From positions 1 through 50,956 of the forward strand of contig WTFW01000066.1 of assembly GCA_011523785.1 (NCBI GenBank): DNA of 50,956 nucleotides. The letters are read 5' to 3'. Under the pieces are notes generated by a model. It made no database searches, was not told where the DNA came from, and saw only the letters and a list, made by a program, of their open reading frames with translations. This document shows positions 11,750 through 39,306 of the stretch, piece after piece. The translations under genes and the position numbers were made by a program. Positions within the stretch are counted from its first letter, which is position 1; each line of letters opens with the position of its first letter. The DNA is from Chloroflexota bacterium (GTDB taxonomy: Bacteria; Chloroflexota; UBA11872).

Positions 11750-11915
11750 ATCCGGTCTCCGTCTCTGTCGCCGCCGTCACTCCGGCGCCGACCGCGCTGA
11801 GCGCGCGAACCGTAGCAGCCCCTGCGGTCAAGCGCCCGATACAGCCGCTTCCGGACGGCGGACTGCGACGGTAGCGGAACGCACGTTGACGGTCCGCCGG
11901 CGGCCGTCGCCCGCC

Positions 11916-11921
11916 TAGAAT
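11916..11921 (+). promoter_or_regulatory. Possible -10 element upstream of the MMPL exporter
   Basis: TAGAAT lies about 37 bases before the best ribosome binding site (GGGAG, 11946-11950). A TTGACG at 11886-11891 is too far away (24-base spacer) to be its standard -35, so the promoter assignment is weak. Confidence 0.3.
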
Positions 11922-11981
11922 CCAGGCAGAGCGTCGTGACGCCGCGGGAGTAACGCGCTGGAGGCACTGGGCCGGTTCACG

Positions 11982-24236: not shown

Positions 24237-26140
24237 GACGGCGCCGGGAAGCCCATCGCCACCGCGAATTCGTCCTGAAAGTCCGGAACCGCCGACAGTT
24301 CCACGTACGACACCCGCGCCGGCAGGTCCATGGCCCGAACGCGCGCCGTCAGCGACAGCAAGCACATCCGCGCCCCATGCCCCGCGGCGTTGCCCACCGC
24401 GCGAATGGCCTCGGGTCCCACGTCGGGCACCAGGCCAATGGCGATGGCGCCAGCTGGATCGATGTAGCTGCCGAAGGCACCCGCCAGGATTACCTCGTCC
24501 AGGTCGTCCGCCGTCAGTCCCGCGTGTCGCATCAGCACGTTGACGCCGCAGCGAATGCTTCCCTTGGCGAGTTGCAGCTGCCGGATGTCCTGCGCATGCA
24601 GCTTGATGGCGGAATCCTGATCGTCGGCCGATCCATACAACACGATCGCGCCGCCCGACGTGTCCGGGATGATCCGGTCGGCATGGGCCGGGACGGCTTG
24701 CTCGGCTTCTTCCTGCCAGAGCAAGCGCCCGTTCGGCGTTACGAGTCCGGTTCGCACCAGCTCCGCCACGGCATCGACCAGGCCCGACCCGCAGATCCCG
24801 ACGGGTTCGGCGTTCTCGATTACGTCCACCTCGATCGCGTCAGCTCCGATGCGCACGCGCTCGATCGCCCCCGGCGCGGCCCGCATGCCTTGGGAGATTT
24901 CGGCGCCCTCGAACGCCGGACCCGCAGGCGCGGCCGTGGCGAACAGTTCCCGGCCCTTCTGCAACACAATCTCGCCATTCGTCCCTACGTCGATCGCCAG
25001 CACGTTGCCGCGCCGCCGCCCCAGGTTGGCGCTGAGCATCATTCCCACGATGTCACCGCCAACGTAGCTGGCGACGTTTGGCGAAACCCAGACCGCCGCC
25101 GACGGCAAGACGTCCAACCCAACCTCGGCCGCCGTGGCCGTGATGGGATCGACCATCGTCGGAACGAAGGGCGAATAGGAAATGCGCGAGGGATCCGCGC
25201 CTATCAGCAAGTGTTCCATCACCGTATTGCCGACGAACGTCAGCTCGTACACCTCGTGCCGGTCTACACCGCTGGCCTCCAGGCATCGCTCGATGATGTC
25301 GTTGACCGTCGACCGCACCGCCTGGGTCAGGCGCTCCACCCACTCCGGTCCGCGCATCGTCACGCTCATCCGGCTGATCACGTCGCCGCCGTAGATGTGC
25401 TGTCCGTTCAGACCCGATGCCACGGCCACTTCTTCGCCCGTCACCAGGTTCATCAACGCGCCGACGACCGTTGTCGTTCCAATGTCGAACGCCAGCCCGT
25501 ATCCCCGTCCGGTCGTGTCGCCCGGCTCCGCGGAGACGATGCGGTTTCCGGCAATTACGACGGTGACGCCCTTGCCGATGTCTTCGCCTATCGCCGCCAG
25601 ACGTTGCAGCGCTTCCAGCGACGGATCCAGGTCGCCCGCCACCGCCGCCAGCTCGTCCTGGATGCGCGACCAGTCCGCGCTCTGATCGTGCAGCGTCGGC
25701 TCCGACGGCTTGACATAAATCTTCTGCACGTCCGGGTCCAGCCGGATCCGGCCCAGCCCCGAGCTCTCCACCACCCGCACGGCTCGCACGCCCACCGGGT
25801 GCGTATAGACGGCGCCCTCGTCCACCGGATGCTGGCAGGCCAGCCGCCAACCGTGCGCCAATTGCTGATCGGATAGGCGGCGACGGTCGTGCGCGTTCGG
25901 CCGCGGCGGCGCCGTCTCGCGAATCAGTACCCGGCAGGTGCCGCAGGAGCCCTTACCCGAGCAGACCGTTTCCACCGGAATGTCGTTGGCCTGGGCCGCA
26001 TCCAGAATGGTGACGCCCTCGGACGCGGCGATCTCCCGGTCTTCCGGCAGAAAGCGTGCACGGACGATGGGGTCGAGGTCGATCAAGGATTTCCGCCGGG
26101 ACGGCGCAAGGGAAGGTCGGGCCTGATCTTCGCACGCCAA
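24233..26140 (-). CDS. RACo-like reductive activator of corrinoid proteins ([2Fe-2S] + ASKHA domains)
   Basis: The N-terminus is a plant-type ferredoxin with Cys60, Cys66, Cys69 and Cys102 ([12 protein letters not shown]...LAC). A linker and the DUF4445 ATPase domain follow, with [26 protein letters not shown] and [12 protein letters not shown] as actin-like nucleotide motifs, and IRCGVNVLM and [10 protein letters not shown] near the end. Such proteins use ATP and reduced iron-sulfur clusters to restore inactive Co(II) corrinoid methyltransferase proteins. The first start is TTG at 26140; a second TTG at 26086 is also possible. The protein is 635 residues, the usual size. The corrinoid partner is not adjacent, but a methyltransferase of the matching type lies at 41522. 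Confidence 0.85.
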
Positions 26141-26172
26141 CAGCGCCTACCAATGCTGCCCGCGCACATGGG

Positions 26173-26178
26173 TACAAT
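26173..26178 (+). promoter_or_regulatory. Possible -10 element of nuoB
   Basis: TACAAT (5 of 6 to consensus) lies 37 bases before the nuoB ATG and 22 bases before its ribosome binding site. No good -35 is visible. Confidence 0.35.
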
Positions 26179-26214
26179 GAACCGTCCACGCAAAGGCCCC
26201 AGGAGCAGCACGCC

Positions 26215-26841
26215 ATGGCGGACGCCCCCGATCAGGGCGCAGAACACCGGCACGACTTCGGTCTCGACCAGATTCCGCTGGGCCACCAGCCCTGGGGACG
26301 CGCCGAGTTGGAGCTTGGCGAGGACACCATCCCGCTCGTCCAGGCCACCAACGTCGTTGGCGGCCTCGACATCATCACCACGACCGTGGACAAGATTTTC
26401 ACCTGGTGCCAGGCCAACTCGCTGTGGGCGATGGGCTTCGGGCTCGCCTGCTGCGCCATCGAGATGATGGCCAGCGCCGCGCCGCACTACGACCTTGACA
26501 GGTTCGGGACGGTCTTCCGCGCCTCGCCCCGCCAGTCCGACGTGATGATCGTTTCCGGCACCGTCACCAACAAGATGGCCCCGGTCGTCAAGCGCCTCTA
26601 CGACCAAATGCCCGACCCGAAGTGGGTTATCGCCATGGGCGCCTGCGCCACCTGCGGCGGGCCGTTCCGCAGCTACAGCACCCTGCAGGGTGTCGACCGC
26701 GTGGTTCCGGTTGACATCTACATCGCCGGCTGCCCGCCCCGCCCCGAGGCCCTGATCGACGGCATCATGGCCCTCCAGCGCAAGATCAACAGTGACGGCA
26801 TCATGGGCACCGGCCGCGCGACGGAGCCCGTTCAGGCCTGA
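26215..26841 (+). CDS. nuoB: NADH-quinone oxidoreductase subunit B
   Basis: NuoB carries cluster N2, the last iron-sulfur centre before quinone in complex I. The ligands are visible: the tandem Cys79-Cys80 in [10 protein letters not shown], Cys144 in GACATCGG and Cys173 in GCPPRPE. The protein is 208 residues, with a charged N-terminal extension of about 35. ATG 26215 is preceded by AGGAG at 26201-26205. The other nuo genes are not in the window: the next gene is an unrelated PHP protein. This copy is therefore separated from a nuo operon, or is a paralogue. Confidence 0.92.
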
Positions 26842-26882
26842 CACCTCCTGCTGGCGAGGCCCAAGCCTCGAAGTCCGGACGC

Positions 26883-27554
26883 TTGCGCGTCGAGTTGCAC
26901 TCGCACACGCACGCGTCCCCCGATTCGCGCCTGTCGGCCGAGACCATCACGCGCGTCAACCGCGAGCGCGGAATCGACGTGGTGGCGGTCACCGACCACA
27001 ACACCATGGCCGGCGCCTTCGAGATGGCCGAGCGCCTGCCGTTTCCCGTGATCCTGGGCGAGGAGATCAAGAGCACCGAAGGCGACATCATCGGCCTCTT
27101 CCTCTCGCGCGAAATCCCTCGCGACATGTCGCCTGCCGAAACCGTGGCCGCCATCCGCGAACAAGACGGCCTTGTCCTGCTCCCCCACCCGTTCGACGGT
27201 CTGCGGCGCTCGGCGCTCGGACGCGAGGCGGTCGATTCGATCGTTGCAGACATCGACATTTTCGAAGTCTTCAACGGCCGGACACTCCGTCGCCGGGACA
27301 ACGACGCCGCCGACCGTTACGCGGATGAACACGGTCTGATCAAGTCCGTTGGCTCGGACTCCCATCTCGCCGCCGAGATCGGCCACTGCTGCCAGTCCAT
27401 GCGTCCCTGGGACAGCCCGCGGGACTTCCTGAACTCCCTGCGCGAAGCCGAGCTACACGCCTCCCTGGCCCCCGCCTGGGTCCATCTCGGCAGTTCGCTG
27501 CACGCCTACGCGGCCAAGGTCGAGCGCCGACTTCGACGCCTGACCCGGGCTTGA
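26883..27554 (+). CDS. PHP-domain metal-dependent phosphoesterase
   Basis: The N-terminal motif ELHSHTHASPDS, followed by VVAVTDHNTMAG and LLPHPFDG and then SVGSDSHLAAEIG, gives the His/Asp metal ligands of PHP phosphoesterases. The protein is about 223 residues, the length of the stand-alone PHP family, and has no polymerase domain. The substrate is unknown; relatives hydrolyse nucleotides or sugar phosphates. It starts with TTG at 26883 and overlaps the next gene by 4 bases (TTGA). Confidence 0.85.
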   Translation: MRVELHSHTHASPDSRLSAETITRVNRERGIDVVAVTDHNTMAGAFEMAERLPFPVILGEEIKSTEGDIIGLFLSREIPRDMSPAETVAAIREQDGLVLLPHPFDGLRRSALGREAVDSIVADIDIFEVFNGRTLRRRDNDAADRYADEHGLIKSVGSDSHLAAEIGHCCQSMRPWDSPRDFLNSLREAELHASLAPAWVHLGSSLHAYAAKVERRLRRLTRA

Positions 27555-28918
27555 GCGGCGCGGCCGCGGAACCTGCGGCGTCCAGCACAGCCGGTCCATC
27601 CCCATCGTTCAACAGGCGCGCAACCACCCTCCTCCTGCCGGCGTCCCTGAATCTCGGCATCACCCACGTCCTGGCGCCGGCGCTCAACGGCCTGATGGCG
27701 CGCAGCGTCGAGCCGGAAGCCGCCATCGGCGGTTATGCCATTGCCATGGGCGTCATGGGCCTGGTGGCCCTGCCCCAAATGCGCATCCAGCAGCTGACGC
27801 TGGTCTTTCTGGACGACCAGGGCTCGCTGAGCCGGCTGCGGCGCTTCGTCGCGCTTTTCGCACTGCTCAGCGGTCTCGTGGCCGCCGTCGTGGCCTTCAC
27901 CCCCGTGCTCGACCTGCTGCTGGATGGCGTGTTCGCAACCACCGGCGCCCTCCGATCGGAATCCGCCGCCGCCCTGGTGGCGCTCATGCCCTTCCCGGTC
28001 CTGGCCATCATCCGCACCCACCTCTACGGCGTGGCGTTGCGTATTGGCCGTCCACGGCTCATCTGGTTTGGCACAGGCGCGGGCGCCGTCGCGGTCATTG
28101 TCGTCGCCGCGCTGGTGCTCTGGCTCGACCCGTCGGCCGGCGGGGCCATCGCCGCCATTGCGGTAACCGCCGGCGCCGGCGTTGAGACTGTTGTACTTGT
28201 CGCGGGCACCACAGGACCGTTGCGCCGTGACCTTGCAGCGTCTGCGGGCTTGCCGCCTACCTACGGCGCCCTGCTCCGCTTCTTCGGCCCGCTGCTCGTG
28301 GCCGCCTTCCTGCCCGCCGTCACCCAACCGGTCATCAATGCCATCCTCACGCGCGCCCCCGAACCCGAGGCCAGCGTGGCCGCCGTCTCGCTCACCTTCG
28401 GCGTCAACCAGATCTTCCTCATCGCCCTCTGGGGAGTTCAGCCCACCCTGCTGGCTCTGATGGGCCGGGGCGAGAGTCCGGCTGCCGCCCGACGCTTTGC
28501 CAACATCGTGGGGCTCATCACCGTTGGTCCGGCCGCCGTCATTGCATTCATTCCACCGCTTACCAGCCTGGTCGTGCACGACTGGCTGGGCGCCACCGGC
28601 CGGCTGCAGGAAATGACCGAAGCCGGCCTGCGCATCCTGGCCCTGCTGCCCCCGATCCTCGTTCAGGAAGCCATTTTCACCAGCGCCATCCTGCGCGTCC
28701 GCCGGGCCCATCTGCTCGTGTACGTCAATGCGATCCGGCTCGTCGGTCTGGCGGCCATTCTGCTTATCGGCGTCAGCGTCACCGATCTTTCCGGTGGGGT
28801 GATCGGCGTCGCGGCCATTGGCGGCGCGCTCGTCATCGAGGCAATTGCAACTGTCGCTCTCGGCCTCGGCGCCCAACGTCAGCTCGAACGCGGGTGGCTT
28901 CCTCAAACTTCGCTTTGA
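27551..28918 (+). CDS. MOP-superfamily membrane transporter (MATE/ANK-like)
   Basis: The 455-residue protein has about twelve helices in two related halves, as in MATE and ANK-type (progressive ankylosis) transporters. PASLNLGITHVLAPALN in the first helix and GVNQIFLIALWGVQPTLLAL in the second half resemble that group. The substrate is not evident; ANK proteins export anions such as pyrophosphate or citrate. The start is TTG at 27551, overlapping the PHP stop, so it is translationally coupled. A long open frame on the opposite strand is GC-driven shadow. The gene's last bases contain the -35 element of the next promoter. Confidence 0.75.
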   Translation: MSGAAAEPAASSTAGPSPSFNRRATTLLLPASLNLGITHVLAPALNGLMARSVEPEAAIGGYAIAMGVMGLVALPQMRIQQLTLVFLDDQGSLSRLRRFVALFALLSGLVAAVVAFTPVLDLLLDGVFATTGALRSESAAALVALMPFPVLAIIRTHLYGVALRIGRPRLIWFGTGAGAVAVIVVAALVLWLDPSAGGAIAAIAVTAGAGVETVVLVAGTTGPLRRDLAASAGLPPTYGALLRFFGPLLVAAFLPAVTQPVINAILTRAPEPEASVAAVSLTFGVNQIFLIALWGVQPTLLALMGRGESPAAARRFANIVGLITVGPAAVIAFIPPLTSLVVHDWLGATGRLQEMTEAGLRILALLPPILVQEAIFTSAILRVRRAHLLVYVNAIRLVGLAAILLIGVSVTDLSGGVIGVAAIGGALVIEAIATVALGLGAQRQLERGWLPQTSL

Positions 28919-28942
28919 CAGACGCAAATGCTCGCCTATCCT
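28915..28942 (+). promoter_or_regulatory. Promoter of the ABC exporter leader
   Basis: A perfect -35 TTGACA (28915-28920), a 16-base spacer and a -10-like TATCCT (28937-28942, 4 of 6) form the best housekeeping promoter in the window. The predicted start is near 28949. That gives an untranslated leader of about 215 bases before the exporter ATP-binding gene, containing a short ORF and a terminator. Confidence 0.6.
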
Positions 28943-28996
28943 CAAGTTCGCGGCCCGAGAACCGCTCCGGCCCAAACCACACGTGAGCAAATCCTG

Positions 28997-29065
28997 ATGC
29001 GGATGCGCACCTTCGCTACCCCGGCCATGCCCGGCCGGAGCCACCTGGGTTCCGCCGTGCCCTGA
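28997..29065 (+). CDS. Possible 22-residue leader peptide
   Basis: An ATG-to-TGA frame of 22 codons lies in the leader of the exporter mRNA. It starts MRMRTFATPAMPG and ends SHLGSAVP. A weak GTGA lies about ten bases upstream. The ORF covers a strong hairpin (CCGGCC 29021-29026 with GGCCGG 29033-29038) and ends 23 bases before the terminator stem, the geometry expected for ribosome-controlled attenuation. Three Met codons occur in the first eleven, but no single amino acid dominates. It could also be a chance ORF or a small functional peptide. Confidence 0.4.
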   Translation: MRMRTFATPAMPGRSHLGSAVP

Positions 29066-29088
29066 CTCGCGACTTTCGCACCCCGCTG

Positions 29089-29132
29089 CCGCGGATCAGG
29101 CGCCGAACTCACCGGGCGATCCGCGGTTTTTT
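29089..29132 (+). terminator. Intrinsic terminator in the ABC exporter leader (attenuator)
   Basis: CCGCGGATC (29089-29097) pairs perfectly with GATCCGCGG (29118-29126) across a 20-base loop and is followed by six Ts (29127-29132) and TTT after one G. This is the clearest rho-independent terminator in the window. It lies 30 bases before the ABC gene rather than after a gene, and 140 bases after the predicted transcription start. It therefore probably controls read-through into the exporter. Confidence 0.75.
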
Positions 29133-29162
29133 GTTTGTCGCGAACCTTTGGAAATTGAGGCC

Positions 29163-29990
29163 ATGCAACCCGCTGTATCCATCGACCACCTGGTCAAGCA
29201 ATTCGACCCCGCCGGCTTCGGCGGCGCGTGGCGGCGCGCCCTGGGCCGGCCCCTCAAGGATCCGATCGTGGCGCTCGACGCCATCAACGTGCAGGTCCAG
29301 CGCGGCGAGGTCTACGGCATCGTCGGCTCCAACGGATCCGGCAAGTCCACCCTGGCGCGCGTCGTCGCCACGCTGCTGCTCCCGGACTCGGGCTCGGTCC
29401 AGGTCTTCGGCCACGATGTGGTCCGCGAGGCTCGCACCGTGCGCCGCTTCATGAACCGCGTCTCCGTTGAGGCGTCGTTCTTCAAGAAGCTCAGCCCGCT
29501 CGAGAACCTGACGTTCACCGGCCGCATCTACGGACTGCCGGCTGGAGAAGCTCACCAGCAGATCTTCGAAATCCTCAAGCGCCTGGACATCGAGGAGAAG
29601 GCGATCCGCCGGCCCATGGACCAGATGTCCCGTGGCCAGCAGCAGAAAGTCGCCGTGGCCCGTGCGCTCCTGACGTCGCCGGTGCTCCTGATCCTGGACG
29701 AACCCACCACGGGCCTCGATCCACGCTCCAAGCGCGAAGTCCAGGACTTCGTCCGCGAGGTCTGCGACACCCACGATGCCACCGTGATCCTGATGACCCA
29801 CGACATGGACGAGGCCGAGCAGCTGTGCAACCGCCTGGCCGTGATCGAAAAAGGCCGAATCCTGGTCGAAGACAAGCCCAGCGCCCTGCGCCGCGAGGGC
29901 GAGACCCTGGAAGACGCCTTCATCCGGCTTACCGGCCACGCCGTCGAAGTTCACGAACCCGACGAGGCCGCCGACGGCGGAGGAGGTTGA
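29163..29990 (+). CDS. ABC-2 type exporter ATP-binding protein
   Basis: Walker A is GSNGSGKST (55-63), the signature is MSRGQQQKVAVARAL, and Walker B is LLILDEPTTGLD, followed by the H-loop MTHDMDEAEQL. The signature has Ser-Arg in place of the usual Ser-Gly, common in the DrrA-type subfamily that exports drugs or polyketides. I prefer ATG 29163; a TTG at 29148 is in frame. It is followed after 4 bases by its permease. Expression is probably governed by the upstream terminator. Substrate unknown. Confidence 0.92.
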   Translation: MQPAVSIDHLVKQFDPAGFGGAWRRALGRPLKDPIVALDAINVQVQRGEVYGIVGSNGSGKSTLARVVATLLLPDSGSVQVFGHDVVREARTVRRFMNRVSVEASFFKKLSPLENLTFTGRIYGLPAGEAHQQIFEILKRLDIEEKAIRRPMDQMSRGQQQKVAVARALLTSPVLLILDEPTTGLDPRSKREVQDFVREVCDTHDATVILMTHDMDEAEQLCNRLAVIEKGRILVEDKPSALRREGETLEDAFIRLTGHAVEVHEPDEAADGGGG

Positions 29991-29994
29991 CCTG

Positions 29995-30819
29995 ATGGTT
30001 CCGCTAAGACGTGAAGTAAGCGCCTCGTACGCCTTTGTGGAACGCAACTTCCGCGCCGTGCGCCGCTACTGGGGTTGGGAGGTCGTGTTTCTCTTCCACT
30101 CCATCGTCAGCGCGCTCACCGTCGCCTACATCGCGCCGGGCGGCGTGGTGGTGGCCGGCCAGCAGTTCGATGCCGACCGCCTGATCCTGTTCCTGGTCGT
30201 CGGCACCGTGGTCTGGGCCTACCTCGACAGCGTCTTCGACTCCGTGGCCTTCATGGTCTCGTGGGAGCGCTGGGAAGGCACGATCGAAAGCACCTTCATG
30301 GCCCCCATCCGTCGGGTGACGTTCATTGCCGGCAGCTCCGCCTTCGCCGTGCTCTACTCGTTCGCCCGCGCCGTCGTGATCCTCGTGGTCGTGGCGCTGT
30401 TCTTCAATCTCGATCTGGCCGCGGCCAATTGGGTGGGCGCCTTTGCCGTGCTGGCCATCGGCAGCCTGGGGCTGCTCGGCATCGGCATCATGGCGGCCGC
30501 GTTGCCCCTGCTGTTCCTGGAACGCGGCTCGCAGATGACCGTGGTCGTCCAGGCCTCGCTGCTGCTCGTTTCCGGCGTCTACTACCCCGTGGAAGTCTTG
30601 CCGGACTGGCTGGAGTGGTTCTCCGTGGTCTCGCCCGCCACCTACGTCCTCAACGCCATGCGCGCCGCGGTGCTCGATGGCGTCACCCTGGTCGACCTGC
30701 TGCCCCACTTCGGTCCCCTGATGCTCATCACCGCCGTCACCATGCCCCTCGGCGTCTGGGTCTTCGGCTGGGCCGAACGCTACGCCCTGCGCCACGGCCG
30801 CCTGAAGCGCAGCGGCTGA
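29995..30819 (+). CDS. ABC-2 type exporter permease
   Basis: The 274-residue protein has about six membrane helices with the ABC-2 layout, and the segment GVYYPVEVLPDWLEWFSVVSP is typical for the family. GGAGGAGG lies 10-15 bases before the ATG at 29995. It is the membrane partner of the ATP-binding protein 4 bases upstream. It ends 14 bases from the convergent halogenase gene. Confidence 0.9.
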   Translation: MVPLRREVSASYAFVERNFRAVRRYWGWEVVFLFHSIVSALTVAYIAPGGVVVAGQQFDADRLILFLVVGTVVWAYLDSVFDSVAFMVSWERWEGTIESTFMAPIRRVTFIAGSSAFAVLYSFARAVVILVVVALFFNLDLAAANWVGAFAVLAIGSLGLLGIGIMAAALPLLFLERGSQMTVVVQASLLLVSGVYYPVEVLPDWLEWFSVVSPATYVLNAMRAAVLDGVTLVDLLPHFGPLMLITAVTMPLGVWVFGWAERYALRHGRLKRSG

Positions 30820-30833
30820 GGCTGGTCGTTGGT

Positions 30834-32522
30834 CTACGCGATGTCGACCGCGCCGGTCTTGGCCAGGCGCGTGAGTGTGGCGGCGACCAGGTCGCGCAGG
30901 TCGGCTTCGATCGGAGTGCCTGCGTAGCGGTCCCGCAGGTCGGCCGCGATGTCCAGTCCGCTGCGGCGCCCGTCCAGCCGTTCCAGCACCGCTAGCGCCG
31001 CGATCGGCAACTCGATGTGCTCTGGGCCGGCATTGGGGTGAAGCCGGGTCACCCGCGTTATCGGCCGCAGGATCTCGTCGTGCTCGGCCATGTGCGGGCG
31101 AAAGCTGATGGCATCGCCCAGGCGCGGCCGTCCCAGCAGCACGCTGGTAGCCGTCGGCGCACGCGCCGGCCCAGCACCGAAGCCCGCCTCGGCATCGGAG
31201 ATCTCGGATTGGCTGTCGGAGTCCAGGTCCGTCGCCAGATTGTCGTAGATCAGTTCCAGCTGCCGCGGGCTATAGCCGCCAGCCGAGCGCAGTCGCCCGC
31301 CCGCCCCTTGCGTGCCGGTCACGCCCGCCGACAGGTGAATAAAGGCCTGTCGCATCGAGAAGTTTCTTGTCGGATCGGCCAGCTTCTTGGCCCGCCAGAA
31401 CCAGGCGTCGGCGTCGGCGTGCCCTCCGTACCAGTGCTCCGCCAGGTCGGCGAAGTCCGTGGCGATACTTCGGTACTCCGTCTCGTACCAGTCCATCGCC
31501 AGTCCCCGCAGCCACGGTGCCGCCCGTCCCGTTCGTATCGCCCGTGCGCCTCGCAGCGCACCGTTCACCGCGAGCGTCACGCCGGTTGACAGGATCGGGT
31601 CGATGAAACAAGCCGCGTCGCCTACCTGCATGTATCCGGGGCCGGCGAACCGGCTGCAAAAGAACGACCAGTCGCTCAGCGCCTCAACCTGCTCGCTGAC
31701 CCATTCGCCGCCATCCAGCAGCGCGGCGATCTCAGGACACCCTCGAACCTGCTCCAGGTAGTAGCCGGTTCTGCTGACCGCGCTCAGGTTGGCCACTGCC
31801 TCTGGGTCCGTCACCAGCCCCACGCTGCGCATCGTGTCCGCGATGGGGATGTGCCAGATCCACCCGTCGGGCACCGTCACGATCAGGATGTTCCCGGCGT
31901 CCTTCGTGTCGTCGGATCCGAGCACTTCATCCAGGTCGCGCCCGCCGCTCCAGTGCCCATAGAAGGCCACGTGCCGCAGTGCCGTGTTGTACTGGCGCGT
32001 CCGAAACACCCGCCCGAACAGCGCGTCCTGGCCCGTCGCGTCGATGGTCAGATCGGCCGTCAGCGCGGTCTCGCGCCCGTCCGCCGCTCGAACTCGCGCA
32101 CCCTGCACGTCGTCCGCTGAACCGACCGGCCCCAGCGCCGTGACGCCCTGCCGAACCTCCACGCCTTCCGCCGCCGCGTGGTCCAGCAGCAGGTTGTCGA
32201 ACCGCGCCCGATCAACCTGCCAGGCAAAGGCCTGGTCCGGGTACACCTCGCTGAACTTCACCGTCCAAGGTTCCCGCGTTCGGCCCCAGATGTAGGTCGC
32301 GCCGAACTTCTGCGTGAACCCGGCCTTCTCCACCAGCGGCAGCGCCCCGCTTGCGTCCAGGGCCGGCAGCACGCCCGGAATCAGCGACTCGCCCACGTGC
32401 GGCCGCGGCATGTGCTCACGCTCAACCAGCGCCACCCGCATCCCGTCCTGCGCCAGCAGCGTGGCCAGCGTGGACCCTGCCGGGCCTCCGCCGAGGATCA
32501 GCGCGTCGTAGCCGCTGCTCAC
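30834..32522 (-). CDS. Flavin-dependent halogenase with a PqqD-like C-terminal domain
   Basis: The FAD-binding motif GGGPAG (11-16) and the halogenase signature WIWHIP (221-226) are both present. Lys72 in GFTQKFGATYIWG is at the position of the catalytic lysine in phenol/pyrrole halogenases such as CmlS and PltA. FIDPILSTGV matches the FxDPxxSxGV region. Such enzymes make hypohalous acid from FADH2, O2 and halide and chlorinate or brominate an activated ring. After residue about 490 the protein has LPIAALAVLERLDGRRSGLD and a helical tail, resembling the PqqD winged helix that recognises peptide substrates. GTG 32522 overlaps the upstream gene's stop (GTGA); 562 residues. Confidence 0.85.
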   Translation of the reverse strand: MSSGYDALILGGGPAGSTLATLLAQDGMRVALVEREHMPRPHVGESLIPGVLPALDASGALPLVEKAGFTQKFGATYIWGRTREPWTVKFSEVYPDQAFAWQVDRARFDNLLLDHAAAEGVEVRQGVTALGPVGSADDVQGARVRAADGRETALTADLTIDATGQDALFGRVFRTRQYNTALRHVAFYGHWSGGRDLDEVLGSDDTKDAGNILIVTVPDGWIWHIPIADTMRSVGLVTDPEAVANLSAVSRTGYYLEQVRGCPEIAALLDGGEWVSEQVEALSDWSFFCSRFAGPGYMQVGDAACFIDPILSTGVTLAVNGALRGARAIRTGRAAPWLRGLAMDWYETEYRSIATDFADLAEHWYGGHADADAWFWRAKKLADPTRNFSMRQAFIHLSAGVTGTQGAGGRLRSAGGYSPRQLELIYDNLATDLDSDSQSEISDAEAGFGAGPARAPTATSVLLGRPRLGDAISFRPHMAEHDEILRPITRVTRLHPNAGPEHIELPIAALAVLERLDGRRSGLDIAADLRDRYAGTPIEADLRDLVAATLTRLAKTGAVDIA

Positions 32523-33391
32523 GCGCAGTCGTGCTGCCGGCGTAGTTCCCGGCTCTCCGCTGCTAGCCCGGCGGCAGCCAGCAGATCGGCCGCCTTGGCG
32601 TAGGCAGCTTCGTAGTCCGCGCTTCCGATGATCTCCAGGGCCCGAGCCCGTGCCCGCCATGCCCGGGCAGCCACAAACGGCGCTCGCTCGGCGTCCACGT
32701 CCTTCAGGGCCGTGTCGGCCAGCCCTTGCGCCGCCGGGGCGAATTGCTTCGGGTCTGACTTCGGATGATCCAGCAGCAGCCCACTCAGCAGAAGCTGGCA
32801 GCGCGCATGCGCCGTGGCGTCCTTGTTTGGAGTCAGCGTGGCCGCCGCTCGCCGCGCGTGACCCACGGCGCGCTCGATCAGCGGGGCGCGATCACCGGCC
32901 GGATAGAGCGCAAACACCTCCGCAATCTCCAGGTCGGTCCGCGCCACCGCTTCCGAATCTCCCGCCGCTTGCCGATATTGCGCGGCCGCCAACAGGTCCA
33001 TCGCCGCCGCTTCCAGCATCCGGCCGTAATCCTCATCCCCTGGCGCCGCTGCCAGGCGGCGCGCAACGCCCCGCGCCTCCTGTGCGTCCGCTCGTGCGGA
33101 CTCCTCGGCCGGACTGGCGCTTTCCAGCCAGCACTCCGCAGCTTCGATGGCCTCTCGCGCAACGGCCGGCGTGACCGGCTGCCCGCCCAGCGCCAGTGCC
33201 CGTACGCCCAGCGCCAGCGCCCGCGCGGCGTCGACCGACGCCCGCGGGAACGACTCGGAATCCAGAATCGCCCGGGCACGCCGCGCGGCGGCAACCGCCT
33301 CCGGAGCGCCGGGCGAACGGTCGCCGAGCGCTTCAATTGCGAAGCCCAGCGGATCCGCCGCCAAATCCACGGTCGACGCGTCGGAAGTCAT
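32519..33391 (-). CDS. Helical repeat protein coupled to the halogenase
   Basis: I do not recognise a named family. The 290-residue protein is almost entirely alpha-helical and Ala/Arg/Glu-rich. It has TPR-like pairs of helices, such as GRMLEAAAMDLLAAAQYRQA and RAWRARARALEIIGSADYEA. There is no signal peptide or membrane helix. ATG at 33391. It overlaps the halogenase start by 4 bases and is the first gene of that two-gene unit, so it may be a scaffold or substrate-presenting partner. That is inference from position. Confidence 0.75.
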   Translation of the reverse strand: MTSDASTVDLAADPLGFAIEALGDRSPGAPEAVAAARRARAILDSESFPRASVDAARALALGVRALALGGQPVTPAVAREAIEAAECWLESASPAEESARADAQEARGVARRLAAAPGDEDYGRMLEAAAMDLLAAAQYRQAAGDSEAVARTDLEIAEVFALYPAGDRAPLIERAVGHARRAAATLTPNKDATAHARCQLLLSGLLLDHPKSDPKQFAPAAQGLADTALKDVDAERAPFVAARAWRARARALEIIGSADYEAAYAKAADLLAAAGLAAESRELRRQHDCA

Positions 33392-33434
33392 GACAGCGCC
33401 AACGCTGGCGTGTGGAAGTGTCGCGGAATCATGG

Positions 33435-33440
33435 GATAAT
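33435..33440 (+). promoter_or_regulatory. Possible -10 element of the PhyH-family gene
   Basis: GATAAT lies 69 bases before the ATG at 33509, in the divergent gap from the helical repeat protein. No convincing -35 is visible. Confidence 0.3.
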
Positions 33441-33508
33441 CAGTCTAGCCGCAGGCTCCGCGGCGTCTGTCTGACCAGTAAACGTCGTCTCGACAGAGGG
33501 GGATTTCC

Positions 33509-34300
33509 ATGGCCACCCAAACGCTCGCCCGCCTGACGCCAGCGCAGGTCGACGCTTTCTGGCGCGACGGATACCTTGTCCTGCCGGACTTTCTGAGCGA
33601 CGACGACATCGCCACCCTGCGGACCAGCATGGACGCTCTGGAGAGTTGGGCGCAGAGCCATGAGCACCGCGACTTCCAGCGCGAACCGAATGCGCTCCAC
33701 ACCGAGCGACTCGCGATCCGCAAAATCGACCACATTCACAAATACGGCGGGGTGATCTGGGACGAATTGATGCGCCGCGACGAAGTGCTGGACCTCATGG
33801 AGGATCTGATCGGTCCGGACATCCGATTCCATCACTCCAAGATGATGGTGAAGCCGCCGTTCGAAGGCTCAGCCAAACCCTGGCACCAGGACCTGCCGGA
33901 AGGCTTCATCACGCACGAGGAAGCTGACCGTCTCCGCCCGTGGGGAACCGACTTGCAGCCCGAGCAGGTGCCGGTCGTCGCCATCCAGTACTACCTGGAC
34001 GACTCGACGCTTGAGAACGGCTGCATTCAGGTCGTGCCCGGCAGTCACCGCCGCGGTCTTTTCGAAGATCCCTTGCACGAGTCGCTGATCGACCCGTCGG
34101 AGGTCGTGGCCGCCGAGCTCAAGACTGGCGGCGCGCTGTTGTTTCACTGCCTGACGTACCACTATTCGGCGCCAAACACCTCTCCTAACGGGCGTCGCGG
34201 CGTTGTATACGAGTACATGGCCCCGGCTACGGGCGTGGAGCTCTCCTACGACGTCGAAGCCGACGCTGGCTGGGGCATGCCACTGCGAGTCGCTAACTAA
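33509..34300 (+). CDS. Phytanoyl-CoA dioxygenase (PhyH) family Fe(II)/2-oxoglutarate oxygenase
   Basis: The iron triad is visible: His126 and Asp128 in KPWHQDLP, and His218 in TYHYSAPNTSPNGRR, with Arg230 as the likely 2-oxoglutarate contact. The N-terminal DAFWRDGYLVLPDFLS is typical of PhyH proteins. The 263-residue length fits the bacterial members, which hydroxylate diverse small molecules. ATG 33509 is preceded by AGAGGGGG. The gene is followed by a Gfo/Idh/MocA protein on the same strand, which may act in the same catabolic route. Confidence 0.88.
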   Translation: MATQTLARLTPAQVDAFWRDGYLVLPDFLSDDDIATLRTSMDALESWAQSHEHRDFQREPNALHTERLAIRKIDHIHKYGGVIWDELMRRDEVLDLMEDLIGPDIRFHHSKMMVKPPFEGSAKPWHQDLPEGFITHEEADRLRPWGTDLQPEQVPVVAIQYYLDDSTLENGCIQVVPGSHRRGLFEDPLHESLIDPSEVVAAELKTGGALLFHCLTYHYSAPNTSPNGRRGVVYEYMAPATGVELSYDVEADAGWGMPLRVAN

Positions 34301-34317
34301 ACACAGCCTCACCTCCG

Positions 34318-34336
34318 TCCGCCGGCGGGCGGCGGA
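34318..34336 (+). terminator. Weak terminator-like hairpin after the PhyH-family gene
   Basis: TCCGCCG-GCGGG-CGGCGGA forms a 7-bp GC-rich stem with a 5-base loop, followed by only TTT. It may reduce read-through into the next gene but is not a strong intrinsic terminator. Confidence 0.35.
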
Positions 34337-34399
34337 TTTGCCGACCAGGCCGCCGGCTTGTCAGGCTTGGTCTGACACACCGCCGTAGGAGTACGACCC

Positions 34400-35527
34400 G
34401 TGGGCAACAAGCCGACCTATAAAGTCGCGCTGGTGAGTTGCGCCATGCACCAGCCGCAGCAGTACGCCCCGACGTTCGCCAATCACCCGCGCACCGAGGT
34501 CGTCTGCGTGGCCGACGATCCCAGCGAGATCGACGACTACGTCGTCGAGACCAACCGCTCGGAGGCCGACCTGTACGGCGTGCCTTACATCGAGAGCATC
34601 GACGCGGTGGCGAACGACCCGTCGATAGACATCGTCAGCGTCTGCCCGCAGCTCGAGCGCCGCGGCGGCCTGTCGGCCCGCCTGGCGGATGCCGGCAAGC
34701 ACCTGTTCATGGACAAGCCCAACGCGATTACGGTGGCCGAGGCAAAAGCAATCGCCGACGCCGCCCGCCGGCGCAACGTCCGCACCGTGATCTACGGACG
34801 CCACATGTCCAGCATGATGCGGCAGATCAAGTCTGAGCTGGACGCCGGCTCGATCGGCGAACTCAAGACCATCCACTGGGACCTGATCTTCGCCAAGGGC
34901 CAGGCCGGCACGGTCCCCGACGACTGGACGACCGCCATTTCGCAGGACCTTTCGCGCTTCACGTACCGCGCCGTAAACGCCGATCCCTCCGGCTCCGGAC
35001 ACGACGTCTGGGCCAAGCGCGAACTGCACGAGATCGGCCTCTATCCAGTCGGCCAGGTGCAATACCTGGCTAACTCACCAGTCACCTCGGTCTACGCCCA
35101 ACTCGGACAGTACTGGCTGGGCTCCCACGCCGACCGCGGTCTCGAAGACTTCGCCATCATGCACATGACGTTCGAGAACGGCGTGACGTCCACCATCACC
35201 ACCGGCCGCTACGGTCGCACGACCGACCCGGGAAGCGGGGTCGACAAGGTATCGGTCGTTGGCACAAAGGGCTCGATCGTGGCCGACGGATCGCCGCCCA
35301 CCGCCACGGCTTACGGCGTACCCGGCGACGACGGCAAGGGAGCGACCCGCGTCGACGCCATGGACTCCGGCGGCATTGAGGCGCTCATCGACCAGTTCAT
35401 TACCTGCATTGACGATGGCAGCGAAACCATCAACAACGCCGATTCCGGCGTTGCCCAGGTCGAGACACTGCTGGCCGGCTACGCCTCCTACTTCAGCGGC
35501 CAGCCCGTCGCGCTACCTCTGGACTGA
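34400..35527 (+). CDS. Gfo/Idh/MocA family protein with atypical nucleotide-binding motif
   Basis: The overall layout and the MDKPNAITVAEAKAIADAA segment (EKP-like motif) identify the family, and the C-terminal domain is complete (375 residues). The first loop, however, reads VALVSCAMHQPQQYAPTF instead of the usual GxGxxG, so NAD(P) binding may differ. GTG at 34400 has AGGAG nine bases upstream, which decides the start. It follows the PhyH-family oxygenase by 99 bases. Substrate unknown. Confidence 0.85.
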   Translation: MGNKPTYKVALVSCAMHQPQQYAPTFANHPRTEVVCVADDPSEIDDYVVETNRSEADLYGVPYIESIDAVANDPSIDIVSVCPQLERRGGLSARLADAGKHLFMDKPNAITVAEAKAIADAARRRNVRTVIYGRHMSSMMRQIKSELDAGSIGELKTIHWDLIFAKGQAGTVPDDWTTAISQDLSRFTYRAVNADPSGSGHDVWAKRELHEIGLYPVGQVQYLANSPVTSVYAQLGQYWLGSHADRGLEDFAIMHMTFENGVTSTITTGRYGRTTDPGSGVDKVSVVGTKGSIVADGSPPTATAYGVPGDDGKGATRVDAMDSGGIEALIDQFITCIDDGSETINNADSGVAQVETLLAGYASYFSGQPVALPLD

Positions 35528-35534
35528 GTCCGAG

Positions 35535-36155
35535 CTAGTCGATCGTCCCTTCGTCGGCGGCCGAGCCCTTGTGCCGCTCGAGTTCGCCGTGCACGTGCAG
35601 GATCCGCTGAACCGCGGTGACCTGCGTCACGACGCTCAGCACCCACAGGCCGGCGCTCAACAGCCAGGCCGGTCCAAGCAGCGAGATCCCCAGCAGTAGC
35701 AGTCGCTCCGGCCGCTGCAGGATCCCGATCTCGCAGTCCACGCCCAGGCCCTCGGCGCGTGCCCGCGTGTAGCTGATCAGCATCGACCCGATCATTGTCG
35801 TCACCGCTAAGACGACCTCGATCCGCGCGTCCTGCGCCACAAAATGCCAGACCAGGCCAGTAAAGATCAGCCCCTCGGCCCAACGATCCAGCGTCGAATC
35901 CAGAAACGCGCCGAACTTCGACCCGTTCCCGCTTACTCGCGCCACGGCCCCGTCCAGCATGTCGAAGCCACCGGTCACCAGCACCAGCAGCCCGCCCGCG
36001 AGTGTCCAGCCAAAGCCAATGCACACCGCCGTCAGCGCGCTGACGGCTAACCCCGCCACGGTCAGCGCGTTCGGATCAATCCCGGTCCGCGCCAGCGGAG
36101 TCACCAGTCGTTCCACCGTTCGGCGCGTGCTCGCTTCGATGTGCGCCTTGTTCAC
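35535..36155 (-). CDS. pgsA: Phosphatidylinositol-phosphate synthase (CDP-alcohol phosphatidyltransferase)
   Basis: The enzyme joins CDP-diacylglycerol with inositol 1-phosphate in the membrane. The CDP-alcohol motif is complete: Asp65, Asp68-Gly69, Ala72-Arg73, Gly82, Asp86 and Asp90 (FDMLDGAVAR...GAFLDSTLD). The later segment SYTRARAEGLGVDCEIGIL, followed by QRPERLLLL, closely resembles actinobacterial phosphatidylinositol-phosphate synthases. GTG 36155 overlaps the mannosyltransferase stop (GTGA). It is 206 residues with about six helices. Position in one operon with inositol-1-phosphate synthase strongly favours inositol phosphate over glycerol phosphate as acceptor. Confidence 0.85.
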   Translation of the reverse strand: MNKAHIEASTRRTVERLVTPLARTGIDPNALTVAGLAVSALTAVCIGFGWTLAGGLLVLVTGGFDMLDGAVARVSGNGSKFGAFLDSTLDRWAEGLIFTGLVWHFVAQDARIEVVLAVTTMIGSMLISYTRARAEGLGVDCEIGILQRPERLLLLGISLLGPAWLLSAGLWVLSVVTQVTAVQRILHVHGELERHKGSAADEGTID

Positions 36156-37339
36156 GACGATGAGCCTCCCGCTCGCACCAGGTCCGCGTCGGCTGACCAA
36201 TAGGGCCCGCCAAGCTCGTCCTCATTCAGCAGTTCCTCGTAGTAGGCCAGCACCCGGTCGGCAACCGTGCTCCAGGTGAAGTCGTGGGCGCGTCGACGAC
36301 CGGCGTCCGCCATCCGCTGGCGTTTGTCCGGGTTGTCGGCCACGCGCATCAGGGCGCGTGCCAGGGCCACATGGTCTTTGGGCGGCACCAGGATTGCTTC
36401 CTCCTGGTCGGAGAGCATGGTTCGCGAGGCGGGAATGTCCGAGGCCACCACGGGCGTCCCGGCGGCCATGGCCTCAAGCAGCGTGATGCCCTGGCTCTCG
36501 CCACCCAGCGCCGGCCAGCAGAAGATGTCGGCGGTTTGCAGGTACTGCCGCTTCTCTTCGTCAGAAACAAAGCCCTTGAACATCACGTGCCGCAAGCCGA
36601 ATTGCTGAATCTGCCGCAGATAGGCGCGTCGCTGGCCCGGTCGAAACGCACCAATCACGATCAGTCGCGCCTGCGGGCGCAACTGGCACACCAGCGCCAT
36701 GGCCCTTAGCAGATAGTCCAGGCCCTTGCGCTTTTCCAGCCGGCCCACGAACACAATGTTCAGCTTGCCGTCCCGCAGTTCGCCGGCCGGCGGCTGCGGT
36801 GCGCCGTAAAAGTCCACGTCGATGCCGTTTGGGATGATCCGATAGGCGCCCTTGTACGAGCGAAACACGAGCTCCCTGGCCGCTTCGGAGACCGCGATCT
36901 TCCCGTGCAGACGGCGCTGGAGACGTCGGATCAGGGGTCGCGTCGTCCGGTAGAACAGTGCCGAATTGCGCGCGGCGTGAAACGTCCCAACATTCACGCT
37001 TGTCGAGTACTGAAGCACCGTGAGCGGCAGCGCCGGCACCAGTGGCTCCTGCAAGTGCACGATGTCGAAGTGCTGCTGGCGCAGGTAACGCCGAACCCGT
37101 GGCACCAGCTGTGGCGACAACGTCAGCCGCGCCCGCGACTGGTTGACCGGCAGCGGCACCACGCGCGATCCGATTCGCACGAACCCTGGAAATTTCTCTT
37201 CAACCTGGTTGTCAGTACTCGGCGCCATGATGGCCACCTCGTGGCCGCGATCCCGCAGTTCCCGTTCCAGGTTGAGGATGTGCTGGGTCACGCCTCCCGG
37301 GTAGGGAAAGTCGTACGGCGAGACCTGCAGAATCCTCAC
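36152..37339 (-). CDS. PimA-like glycosyltransferase (GT4), probable phosphatidylinositol mannosyltransferase
   Basis: The N-terminus VRILQVSPYDFPYPGGVTQH is nearly the PimA pattern, with the GGV loop that contacts the acceptor. The donor domain has IVFVGRLEKRKGLDYLLRA and ESQGITLLEAMAAGTPVVAS, the GT4 EX7E motif. In actinobacteria PimA adds the first mannose to phosphatidylinositol on the cytoplasmic face. GTG 37339 overlaps the acyltransferase stop and the 3' end overlaps the synthase start (both GTGA). It is 395 residues. The sugar is inferred as mannose from homology and operon; not shown directly. Confidence 0.85.
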   Translation of the reverse strand: MRILQVSPYDFPYPGGVTQHILNLERELRDRGHEVAIMAPSTDNQVEEKFPGFVRIGSRVVPLPVNQSRARLTLSPQLVPRVRRYLRQQHFDIVHLQEPLVPALPLTVLQYSTSVNVGTFHAARNSALFYRTTRPLIRRLQRRLHGKIAVSEAARELVFRSYKGAYRIIPNGIDVDFYGAPQPPAGELRDGKLNIVFVGRLEKRKGLDYLLRAMALVCQLRPQARLIVIGAFRPGQRRAYLRQIQQFGLRHVMFKGFVSDEEKRQYLQTADIFCWPALGGESQGITLLEAMAAGTPVVASDIPASRTMLSDQEEAILVPPKDHVALARALMRVADNPDKRQRMADAGRRRAHDFTWSTVADRVLAYYEELLNEDELGGPYWSADADLVRAGGSSS

Positions 37340-38202
37340 GTCTCGAGCGCCTCCGGCCACATCGGGCGAAACATGTACCACTGCGCCGGCGCCTTGCGAA
37401 TCAGCGTTTCCAGGTCCCGCATCACCTGCTGCATGGCCTCCTGGACCGCCTCGGCTGCCGGACGATCGCGATCGATCGTGATCGGCGGCATCCCGTGCGC
37501 CGAGTACGTGCCGTCGTGATATCTGATCATCCCGCCCACCAGCAGCGGACTGCCCGTGTGCCGCGCCAGCACCGCCGCGCCTTCCGGCACCCACACGGGC
37601 CGGTCGAAAAACATGACCTGCACGCCCTTGCCCGGCGTCGGCCGGTCCGCCAGCAGCGCCACGAACTCGCCCCGCCGCAACGTACGCAGAATCCCGCGCG
37701 CCGCGTTCCCCAATTGAATCGTCTTCAGGTTCTTGCGCGCCCGGACATCGTCCAGCAGCGCGGTCACCGACCTGCTGCCGAACGTCTCGGCCACCACGTG
37801 CGTGGGCTGGTCGACCGAGACCAGGCTCCCGCAACAGTCCCAGTTGCCGAAATGCGCCGTGATCATGATGCCGCCGCGACCCATGTGCTTGAACGCTTGC
37901 AGGTGCTGCAGGCCCTCAATGCGCACGGTGTGACGCAGCAATTCCTCCTGGGTCATCCGGTATGTGCGCAAAAAGTCCACCGTGAACTCGGCGTAATTCA
38001 CCACCGACCGCATCGCCAGCGCCCGCACGCGCGGATCGGTCGGCGGCAGGCTCAGTACCACCGACATGTTGGCCGTGGTGTTCCGCCGGATTCGCGGAAC
38101 CAGCCAGTAGACCAGCATTCCGAACAGACGGGCCAGGCCGAACTTCACGGGACGGGGCACCCACCGTTCAGCCTGCGCGGCGATGGCGACTAAGGTGATC
38201 AC
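37336..38202 (-). CDS. LPLAT-family acyltransferase (PatA/LpxL-like)
   Basis: The catalytic H-x4-D motif is HFGNWD (His117, Asp122), followed by the LADRPTPGKGVQVMFF and PEGAAVLARHTG segments of the LpxL/PatA group. A hydrophobic N-terminus probably holds it at the membrane. In actinobacteria the equivalent gene, PatA, acylates the mannose of phosphatidylinositol mannoside and lies beside pimA, as here. It starts with GTG at 38202, 3 bases after the inositol synthase stop. An acyl acceptor other than a mannoside remains possible. Confidence 0.85.
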   Translation of the reverse strand: MITLVAIAAQAERWVPRPVKFGLARLFGMLVYWLVPRIRRNTTANMSVVLSLPPTDPRVRALAMRSVVNYAEFTVDFLRTYRMTQEELLRHTVRIEGLQHLQAFKHMGRGGIMITAHFGNWDCCGSLVSVDQPTHVVAETFGSRSVTALLDDVRARKNLKTIQLGNAARGILRTLRRGEFVALLADRPTPGKGVQVMFFDRPVWVPEGAAVLARHTGSPLLVGGMIRYHDGTYSAHGMPPITIDRDRPAAEAVQEAMQQVMRDLETLIRKAPAQWYMFRPMWPEALET

Positions 38203-38205
38203 GCG

Positions 38206-39306
38206 CTATGCATCGCTCCTGGCGCCGGCGGCAATGTCAGCCGTGCGGATGAACTCGTCGGTCATCACGCGCGCCTCTTCGTCCGAGTACTGGATCGGCG
38301 GCGACTTCATCAGGTAGGCCGACGGCCCTTCAACCGCGCCGCTCAACCCTCGGTCCATGGCGATCTTGCAGCAGCGCAGCGCATCGATTACCACGCCCGC
38401 CGAGTTCGGTGAGTCCACCACTTCCAGCTTTAGCTCGGCGTTCAAGGGCTGGCCCCCAAACGACACGCCCTCCATCCGGATGTAGGCCCACTTGCGGTCG
38501 CCCAGCCAGGGCACGAAATCGCTCGGTCCGATGTGGACGTTCTCGGCCCCGATGTCGTATTCCAGCTGGCTGGTCACCGCGTCGGTCTTGGAGATCTTCT
38601 TGGATTCCAGCCGCGAGCGCTCCAGCATGTTCTTGAAGTCCGAGTTCCCGCCCACGTTGAGCTGGTAGGTGCGCAGCACCTTGACGCCCCGCTCGCGGAA
38701 AAGCCGGGTCAACACCCGGTGCGTGATGGTGGCGCCAACCTGCGACTTCACATCGTCGCCGATGATCGGAACGCCGGCATATCGGAAACGTCCCTGCCAG
38801 TATTCCTCGCGCGCAATGAACACGGGCATGCAGTTCACCATCGCGCATCCGGCGTTGAGGACTTGTTCCACGTACCACTTGGTCGCCTCTTCGCTGCCCA
38901 CCGGCAGAAAGTTGACGACTACGTCCGTGTGCGTGTCCTTCAGCAGCTCGACGATGTTGTCGGTCGCGCCCTCGGCCTTATACACCGTGTCGGCCATATA
39001 GGCGCCAATCCCGTCGTGCGTCATCCCGCGCACTACCGGCACGCCCAGGTGTCCCACCTCCGCGAACTGTGGCGTGTTGTTCGGCGGCGCCGTCATCGCC
39101 TCGGACAGGTCCTTGCCCACTTTGCCCCGGTCGATGTCGATAGCGGCCGAAAACTCCACGTCGCCAACGTGATAGGGGCCGAGTTGCGTGTGCATCAAGC
39201 CGGGGATGAATTCGTCGGCTGCGGCATCGCGGTAAAAGGTCACGCCTTGCACCAGCGACGAGGCGCAATTGCCCACGCCAATGATTCCCACTCGAACCTT
39301 GGACAC
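38206..39306 (-). CDS. ino1: Inositol-1-phosphate synthase
   Basis: The enzyme converts glucose 6-phosphate to inositol 1-phosphate using NAD. The nucleotide site is [13 protein letters not shown] near the N-terminus. Conserved segments include [25 protein letters not shown] and [12 protein letters not shown], and the [10 protein letters not shown] lysines lie in the active site. The 366-residue length is that of the short archaeal/actinobacterial type rather than the 500-residue eukaryotic type. GTG 39306 is fixed by a perfect AGGAGG seven bases upstream. It follows the ArsR gene by 19 bases. Confidence 0.93.

Follow-up and report, generated by a model that had tools for sequence, protein, structure and literature searches.

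A flavin-dependent halogenase with a PqqD-like tail and its coupled TPR-type partner in a genus of Chloroflexota

Does a flavin-dependent halogenase (FDH) whose gene is coupled to that of a helical-repeat protein act on a free small molecule or on a substrate presented by another protein? This question is raised by a pair of genes at positions 30834 to 33391 of contig WTFW01000066.1 (assembly GCA_011523785.1) from a Chloroflexota bacterium, the whole 50,956-nucleotide stretch being called the window in the following. Both genes are on the minus strand in head-to-tail orientation: P0002, encoding a protein of 290 amino acids (32519..33391), is located upstream of the gene for the halogenase, which has a GTG start and encodes 562 amino acids (30834..32522; paralogue A below). 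The stop of P0002 and the start of the halogenase share the four bases GTGA (32519..32522). An earlier note, written from the sequence alone, had described an FDH with a PqqD-like C-terminus next to a helical protein and read the pair as a halogenation system for a peptide or protein-bound substrate; the observation was confirmed and its interpretation was partly supported. We tentatively propose that the pair is a halogenation module assisted by a tetratricopeptide repeat (TPR) protein and acting on a protein-presented substrate, either carrier-tethered or a peptide, a proposal to which we give somewhat less than even credence.

The open reading frame, Pfam and NCBIfam models, solved relatives in the PDB and an alignment confirm by sequence that the enzyme belongs to the FDHs of the CmlS/CndH kind with the Lys/WxWxIP type of active site, from which halogenation is predicted. 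The match to Pfam Trp_halogenase (PF04820, group F; E 2.4e-33) reaches 116.2 bits and exceeds the gathering cut-off of 21, and FAD_binding_3 is matched as well. The catalytic domain spans residues 1-400 (31323..32522), and the alignments with the best solved relatives in the PDB sequence search, 8zop (residues 4-402), CndH (3e1t, 5-402) and CmlS (3i3l, 8-410), end at residues 402-410. The FAD motif GxGxxG is found at residues 11-16, the WxWxIP motif W221-I-W223-H-I225-P226 is encoded at 31845..31862, and the codon for K72 at the position of the catalytic lysine at 32307..32309. Residue E45 (codon at 32388..32390) corresponds to E44 of CmlS and presumably acts as an acid. An F-P-S-G motif (F306-P309-S312-G314) has the same spacing as in PltA. 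In an alignment of 24 FDHs, comprising 10 family members (A, its paralogues B and C, and the protein of genome G020), 11 other Chloroflexota FDHs and three further proteins (Rhizobium CmlS, an FDH from a Streptomyces globisporus C-1027 plasmid and a Staphylococcus plasmid protein), E45, K72, W221 and W223 are identical in all rows. As the rows were picked as homologues, this conservation is expected, but it shows that the motifs have not decayed. All four residues of the F-P-S-G motif are present in the A, C and G020 rows, and the serine (S312) is replaced by alanine in the three B rows aligned. Furthermore, the enzyme is under purifying selection (dN/dS, the ratio of nonsynonymous to synonymous substitution rates, 0.07-0.21 in six pairs).

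Among the NCBIfam models CmlS scored highest with 217.5 bits, which is below the 900-bit cut-off of this equivalog (NF033113). The geranylgeranyl reductase model (GG-red-SF, TIGR02032) gave 105.9 bits against a cut-off of 158.8 and, with the halogenase motifs present, the grouping with geranylgeranyl reductases that had been a concern of the earlier note was rejected. A different reading is suggested by the peptidyl hydroxylases and quinone-cofactor maturases: the enzyme could be a QhpG/LodB-like monooxygenase that hydroxylates a residue of a partner protein. The models for QhpG (NF049967), LodB and GoxB were matched with 186.4, 94.9 and 81.6 bits, respectively, and at E 1e-10 by 10/10 family members scanned, and QhpG likewise has a C-terminal winged helix (PMC7876137). 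Nevertheless, these scores stay below the cut-offs (240, 400 and 400) and below that of the CmlS model, and the lysine and WxWxIP are kept in 24/24 rows, a comparison that does not cover the lysine position of QhpG. In addition, LodA_N was not found in the window's own genome, which is 91% complete, in a search with a positive Caulobacter control; a search for QhpC matched none of its controls and is uninformative. We assume that such a hydroxylase is distinctly unlikely.

The second protein had been described as helical and without a recognised family. At E 0.1, P0002 is matched by no model of Pfam or NCBIfam, and the PDB sequences returned two matches only (E 0.36-0.43), neither of them credible. 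However, its AlphaFold2 (AF2) model, which consists of 13 helices and has a mean predicted local distance difference test (pLDDT) score of 91.4, resembles peptide-binding TPR domains in Foldseek. The first 17 matches are all TPR structures of LGN, Pins and Gpsm2 with a probability of 1.00; the best E-value is 3.2e-4, 15 matches have E <=0.001, the TM-scores range from 0.47 to 0.62 and the identity is 12-15%. According to this model P0002 is a TPR-type superhelix, although a TPR sequence motif above the Pfam cut-off was not found in it. Among three longer homologous partners scanned, one gave a TPR_1 match of 25.6 bits against a cut-off of 27.8 and two gave none. A comparison with the C/B-type partner profile by hhalign, covering 117 N-terminal P0002 columns (E 1.8e-5, probability 78%), shows P0002 to be a homologue of the proteins paired with paralogues B and C. 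With dN/dS values of 0.19-0.51 (six pairs) it is under purifying selection, yet it evolves faster than the enzyme. A role in a defence system was rejected, with no PADLOC match for three proteins including P0002. Outside the genus there is one weak match to P0002, in genome G054 (E 5.5e-4), which contains two internal stops.

The coupling of both proteins is a conserved feature of the genus. At E 1e-60 the FDH family occurs in 14/41 genomes of the class, which break down into all 13 genomes of the window's genus, 0/6 of the sister genus and 1/5 of the other genomes of the order. At E 1e-20, 43 of 400 phylum genomes sampled had a match; for 27 of the 29 matching genomes outside the genus and G020 it extended no further than residue 437, and G233 and G320 reached residue 531. 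Paralogues A and C are present in 13/13 genomes and B in 11/13, and in the tree A, B, C and the G020 protein are on one side (support 88/98, not starred), with A next to G020 (98/96). The earlier note had suggested looking for the pair in other Chloroflexota, and A and P0002 were indeed found together in all 13 genomes of the genus, the 12 related loci being those of the 12 other genus genomes, metagenome-assembled Chloroflexota. The 4-nt overlap is present in the window and, with the starts as called, in 10/12 other loci; L028 and L030 have it as well when the in-frame start nearest upstream is used, giving 13/13. Paralogue C has an adjoining homologous TPR-like partner of about 610-630 amino acids in 13/13 genomes, and the overlap is again 4 nt in the three loci with genes called (L062, L070 and L072). 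Partner B was found in 12/13 genomes (52-61% identical to the partner B of G002) and shares a contig with FDH-B in five, but the spacing varies from an overlap in G002 over about 66 bases in G011 and about 176 in G009 to about 3 kb in G005 and about 4.5 kb in the own genome. FDH-B of the own genome is split across two contig ends, and that of G010 is cut by a contig end. In G008 partner B is present and FDH-B was not found, and in G003 neither was found. A and C are therefore strictly linked to their partners, B only loosely. In each of the 13 genomes two or more FDH paralogues have conserved partners, and the association was kept through duplication, with homologous TPR-like partners across the three paralogues. 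Two or three such pairs retained in one genus are a hint that the halogenated substrate is held by another protein.

FDH-like genes are also found in more distant contexts. Viral contigs from IMG/VR (L077-L082) carry them as 442-amino-acid frames in five loci and as a split gene in L082, with 30-31% identity to the window enzyme over approximately residues 1-336. A Methylothermaceae contig contains two tandem FDH-like genes (L032, about 10001-12490).

The C-terminal region of the halogenase (residues 480-562, 30837..31085), annotated from Pfam, PDB sequence and hidden Markov model (HMM) comparisons, had been likened to the PqqD winged helix. This likeness stood at the profile level and fell short in the Pfam search, in which PqqD (PF05402) reached 19.3 bits with the whole protein, 21.7 with the C-terminal piece and 23.1 in the whole-genome search, all below the cut-off of 23.4. 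An HMM-HMM comparison by hhalign of the family tail with a profile of 30 PqqD domains from other Chloroflexota aligned residues 512-559 with PqqD positions 22-67 of 67 (E 3.6e-8, 95%), compared to 0.052 for the reversed control and 0.034 for the best among 20 column shuffles. Weak Pfam PqqD matches at the same place were seen for one C paralogue (E 0.11) and the G020 protein (E 0.048), and the one B paralogue scanned had no Pfam PqqD match at its tail. Tails of other Chloroflexota FDHs gave PqqD matches by hhalign too: group g47 with E 1.1e-4 (best shuffle 0.065; first half of PqqD only) and, weakly, groups g55 (E 1.9e-4; best shuffle 0.0039) and g46 (E 0.0029; best of 20 shuffles 0.015). A single CmlS-type tail compared with the PqqD profile gave nothing (E 0.13). 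Direct hhalign comparisons of the window-family tail with other FDH tails were weak (E 0.02, 0.002 and 0.014 for three groups, 0.43 for CmlS, reversed 0.19-0.49), and so the argument is based on the PqqD profile. By these profiles the tail is PqqD-like, most clearly in the window family. Other Chloroflexota FDHs have PqqD-like tails too, if weaker ones, so that the tail appears to be widespread in this FDH branch and not, as the earlier note had implied, a special fusion made here. Since PqqD was the only profile used, PqqD-like could partly mean winged-helix-like. An AF2 model of the halogenase from 13 sequences has a mean pLDDT of 38 and predicts helices at 507-513, 522-532 and 537-555, with block means of 76-83 only for residues 521-550.

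Does the tail make the enzyme a halogenase of ribosomally synthesized and post-translationally modified peptides (RiPPs)? It would then be a working RiPP recognition element (RRE) and bind a leader peptide whose gene lies elsewhere in the genome, as the profile match to PqqD could suggest; among the PDB sequences the tail has a single match at E 10, also to a PqqD (5sxy), though with E 0.74. The surroundings of the pair argue in the other direction. The flanking gaps measure 14 and 117 bases, the genes next to the pair include no precursor, NRPS (non-ribosomal peptide synthetase) or RiPP maturation gene, and a scan of 14 proteins in 24233-39291 revealed no biosynthetic cluster and no RiPP enzyme, so that the RiPP setting of the earlier note was not borne out. 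Furthermore, the own genome has no second PqqD match at E 0.01, and in BmdC an RRE-like domain is a remnant in a carrier-dependent enzyme (PMC8795117). We regard a RiPP halogenase proper as very improbable.

Two side observations concern the architecture of other halogenases. In 4/13 other Chloroflexota FDH loci (family f21) a gene for a BNR-type beta-propeller lies upstream of the FDH gene and ends within about 40 bases of it (L047, L049, L054 and L056; for example L054:1-1482). The L054 propeller matches Pfam PSII_BNR (E 2.7e-15) and the other three were judged from similar repeats; it is another repeat-protein neighbour of a halogenase with a PqqD-like tail. One Chloroflexota FDH (L048) has a C-terminal SEC-C motif (E 4.5e-11).

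How, then, could halogenase and partner work together? FDHs form hypohalous acid from a flavin hydroperoxide and deliver it via a lysine. In the proposed module the enzyme would bind FADH2 supplied in trans by a flavin reductase, make hypohalous acid from oxygen and halide and pass it to K72, and an electron-rich group (phenol, pyrrole, indole or enolisable) would be halogenated while another protein presents it, either as a carrier-tethered acyl group or as a peptide or protein side chain. The P0002 superhelix would be co-translated with the enzyme and serve as an adaptor for the enzyme, the substrate-bearing protein or both. The PqqD-like tail may lie near the groove proposed for carrier docking in CndH and help to hold the partner. 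The own genome contains two Flavin_Reduct and three PP-binding matches, elsewhere in the genome.

We favour a protein-presented substrate with P0002 as adaptor because there are relatives acting on carriers or proteins, a precedent in BmdC and a TPR partner. CndH, the chondrochloren halogenase and second-best solved relative (227.9 bits), is a variant B FDH that acts on carrier-bound substrates only, and the carrier is thought to dock in a groove (PMC10377541). In contrast to CndH, the window enzyme is coupled to a TPR protein and has no polyketide synthase or NRPS gene found beside it, and the comparison with CndH covers the core. PltA acts on a carrier-bound substrate, and a review that separates free-substrate from carrier-bound FDHs puts the chloramphenicol halogenase, marked by a footnote, in the second group (PMC6165268). 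QhpG (7ctq), a peptidyl Trp dihydroxylase with a winged-helix tail over the catalytic domain and a protein-bound Trp as substrate, is a related flavoprotein whose structure is closest to CmlS (PMC7876137); the window enzyme differs in scoring below the QhpG cut-off and higher with CmlS. The BmdC oxidase from the bacillamide NRPS is a flavin enzyme that retains an RRE-type winged helix as a remnant and acts on an NRPS-tethered substrate (PMC8795117), but its FMN oxidase fold is unrelated, its RRE-type domain is N-terminal and the accessible part of the paper mentions no TPR partner. MibH, SrpI, MppI and ChlH, FDHs acting on Trp in peptides (PMC12424672), are likened to the window enzyme by their described activity.

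Several points weigh against the proposed module. PqqD-like tails alone are no proof of peptide binding, and the placement of our tail is by analogy, given the low-confidence model of the halogenase. The pair lacks any coupled carrier, precursor peptide, protease or RiPP gene. Partner B is on another contig than FDH-B in six genomes and clearly apart in G001, G004 and G012; in the first two no partner is present within about 8 kb upstream of FDH-B, and G012 has a remnant only. A contig break could account for the separation in G006 and G010, and in G007 the view is limited to 1.5 kb. The G020 enzyme has no TPR neighbour among the genes called and no match to the C/B-type partner profile. Among the relatives, RadH takes free substrates and fills the carrier groove with its own C-terminus, and CmlS is tabulated as variant A, the free-substrate kind (PMC10377541). 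These points, in particular RadH and CmlS, the missing adjoining carrier or peptide gene and the G020 enzyme, would fit an FDH that halogenates a small soluble aromatic as RadH does, with the tail as a mere lid and the TPR protein stabilizing the enzyme or linking it to another pathway. Such an enzyme leaves unexplained why homologous TPR-like partners were retained with three paralogues, and we consider it somewhat less likely than the proposed module.

CmlS (182.7 bits over residues 8-410) shares the FDH core with the lysine and WxWxIP and reportedly has a winged-helix C-terminal domain; it is not known to have a TPR partner. Its tail type is different, as the tail of the Rhizobium CmlS homologue is Pfam CmlS_C, whereas the window tail matches PqqD and has no CmlS_C match at E 10. 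The ammosamide cluster contains both a TPR protein (AmmC2) and an FDH (Amm3), but in the accessible descriptions they are not a coupled pair and the substrate of Amm3 is a free Trp-derived quinone. A description of a halogenase/TPR pair or a PqqD-tailed halogenase was not found in the literature covered, which includes few subscription papers.

Should substrate choice lie with the scaffold, halogenase specificity would become tractable through the pair, and pull-down would allow a direct test of what the substrate is. A more far-reaching idea, which we consider unlikely, is a dedicated halogenation of proteins or peptides outside any recognisable cluster, in which the TPR scaffold and the PqqD-like tail would select ribosomal or carrier-bound targets. 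The genus would then run two or three parallel systems with a scaffold each, and the BNR propellers beside FDHs in another Chloroflexota family, repeat-protein scaffolds of a different fold, would be a second form of this principle. Judged from the isolate names, the genus is probably sponge-associated. The makers of brominated sponge compounds are mostly unknown, with Chloroflexi as candidates by correlation, and for Aplysina sponges a diversity of halogenases is known and Chloroflexi are a suspected source (PMC6644159).

The genes around the pair are conserved as well. Within the reach of the contigs, the 12 other loci have the same order of 15 genes, except for two ABC (ATP-binding cassette) exporter genes unmatched in L030; P0002 of L030 fell below the threshold of this comparison and was found by a separate look at the locus. 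The adjoining exporter was rejected as part of the unit, as it is on the opposite strand and unmatched in the divergent L030, where the pair persists. A PhyH dioxygenase gene at 33563-34201 was likewise dismissed as a functional partner, because with 24 PhyH matches in the own genome of 3.3 Mb such a neighbour is expected by abundance. Further away, a row of genes on the minus strand (35535-39291) resembles phosphatidylinositol mannoside (PIM) synthesis, with all models below their cut-offs: a PI-phosphate synthase (159.5 bits, cut-off 170), a glycosyltransferase, a PIM-acyltransferase-like protein (127.1, cut-off 209) and an inositol-3-phosphate synthase (509, cut-off 638). To our knowledge, this pathway is unusual outside Actinomycetota. 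On the same strand, 24233-26086 encodes an AcsV-like corrinoid activation protein (424.7 bits, cut-off 800) with NuoB adjoining.

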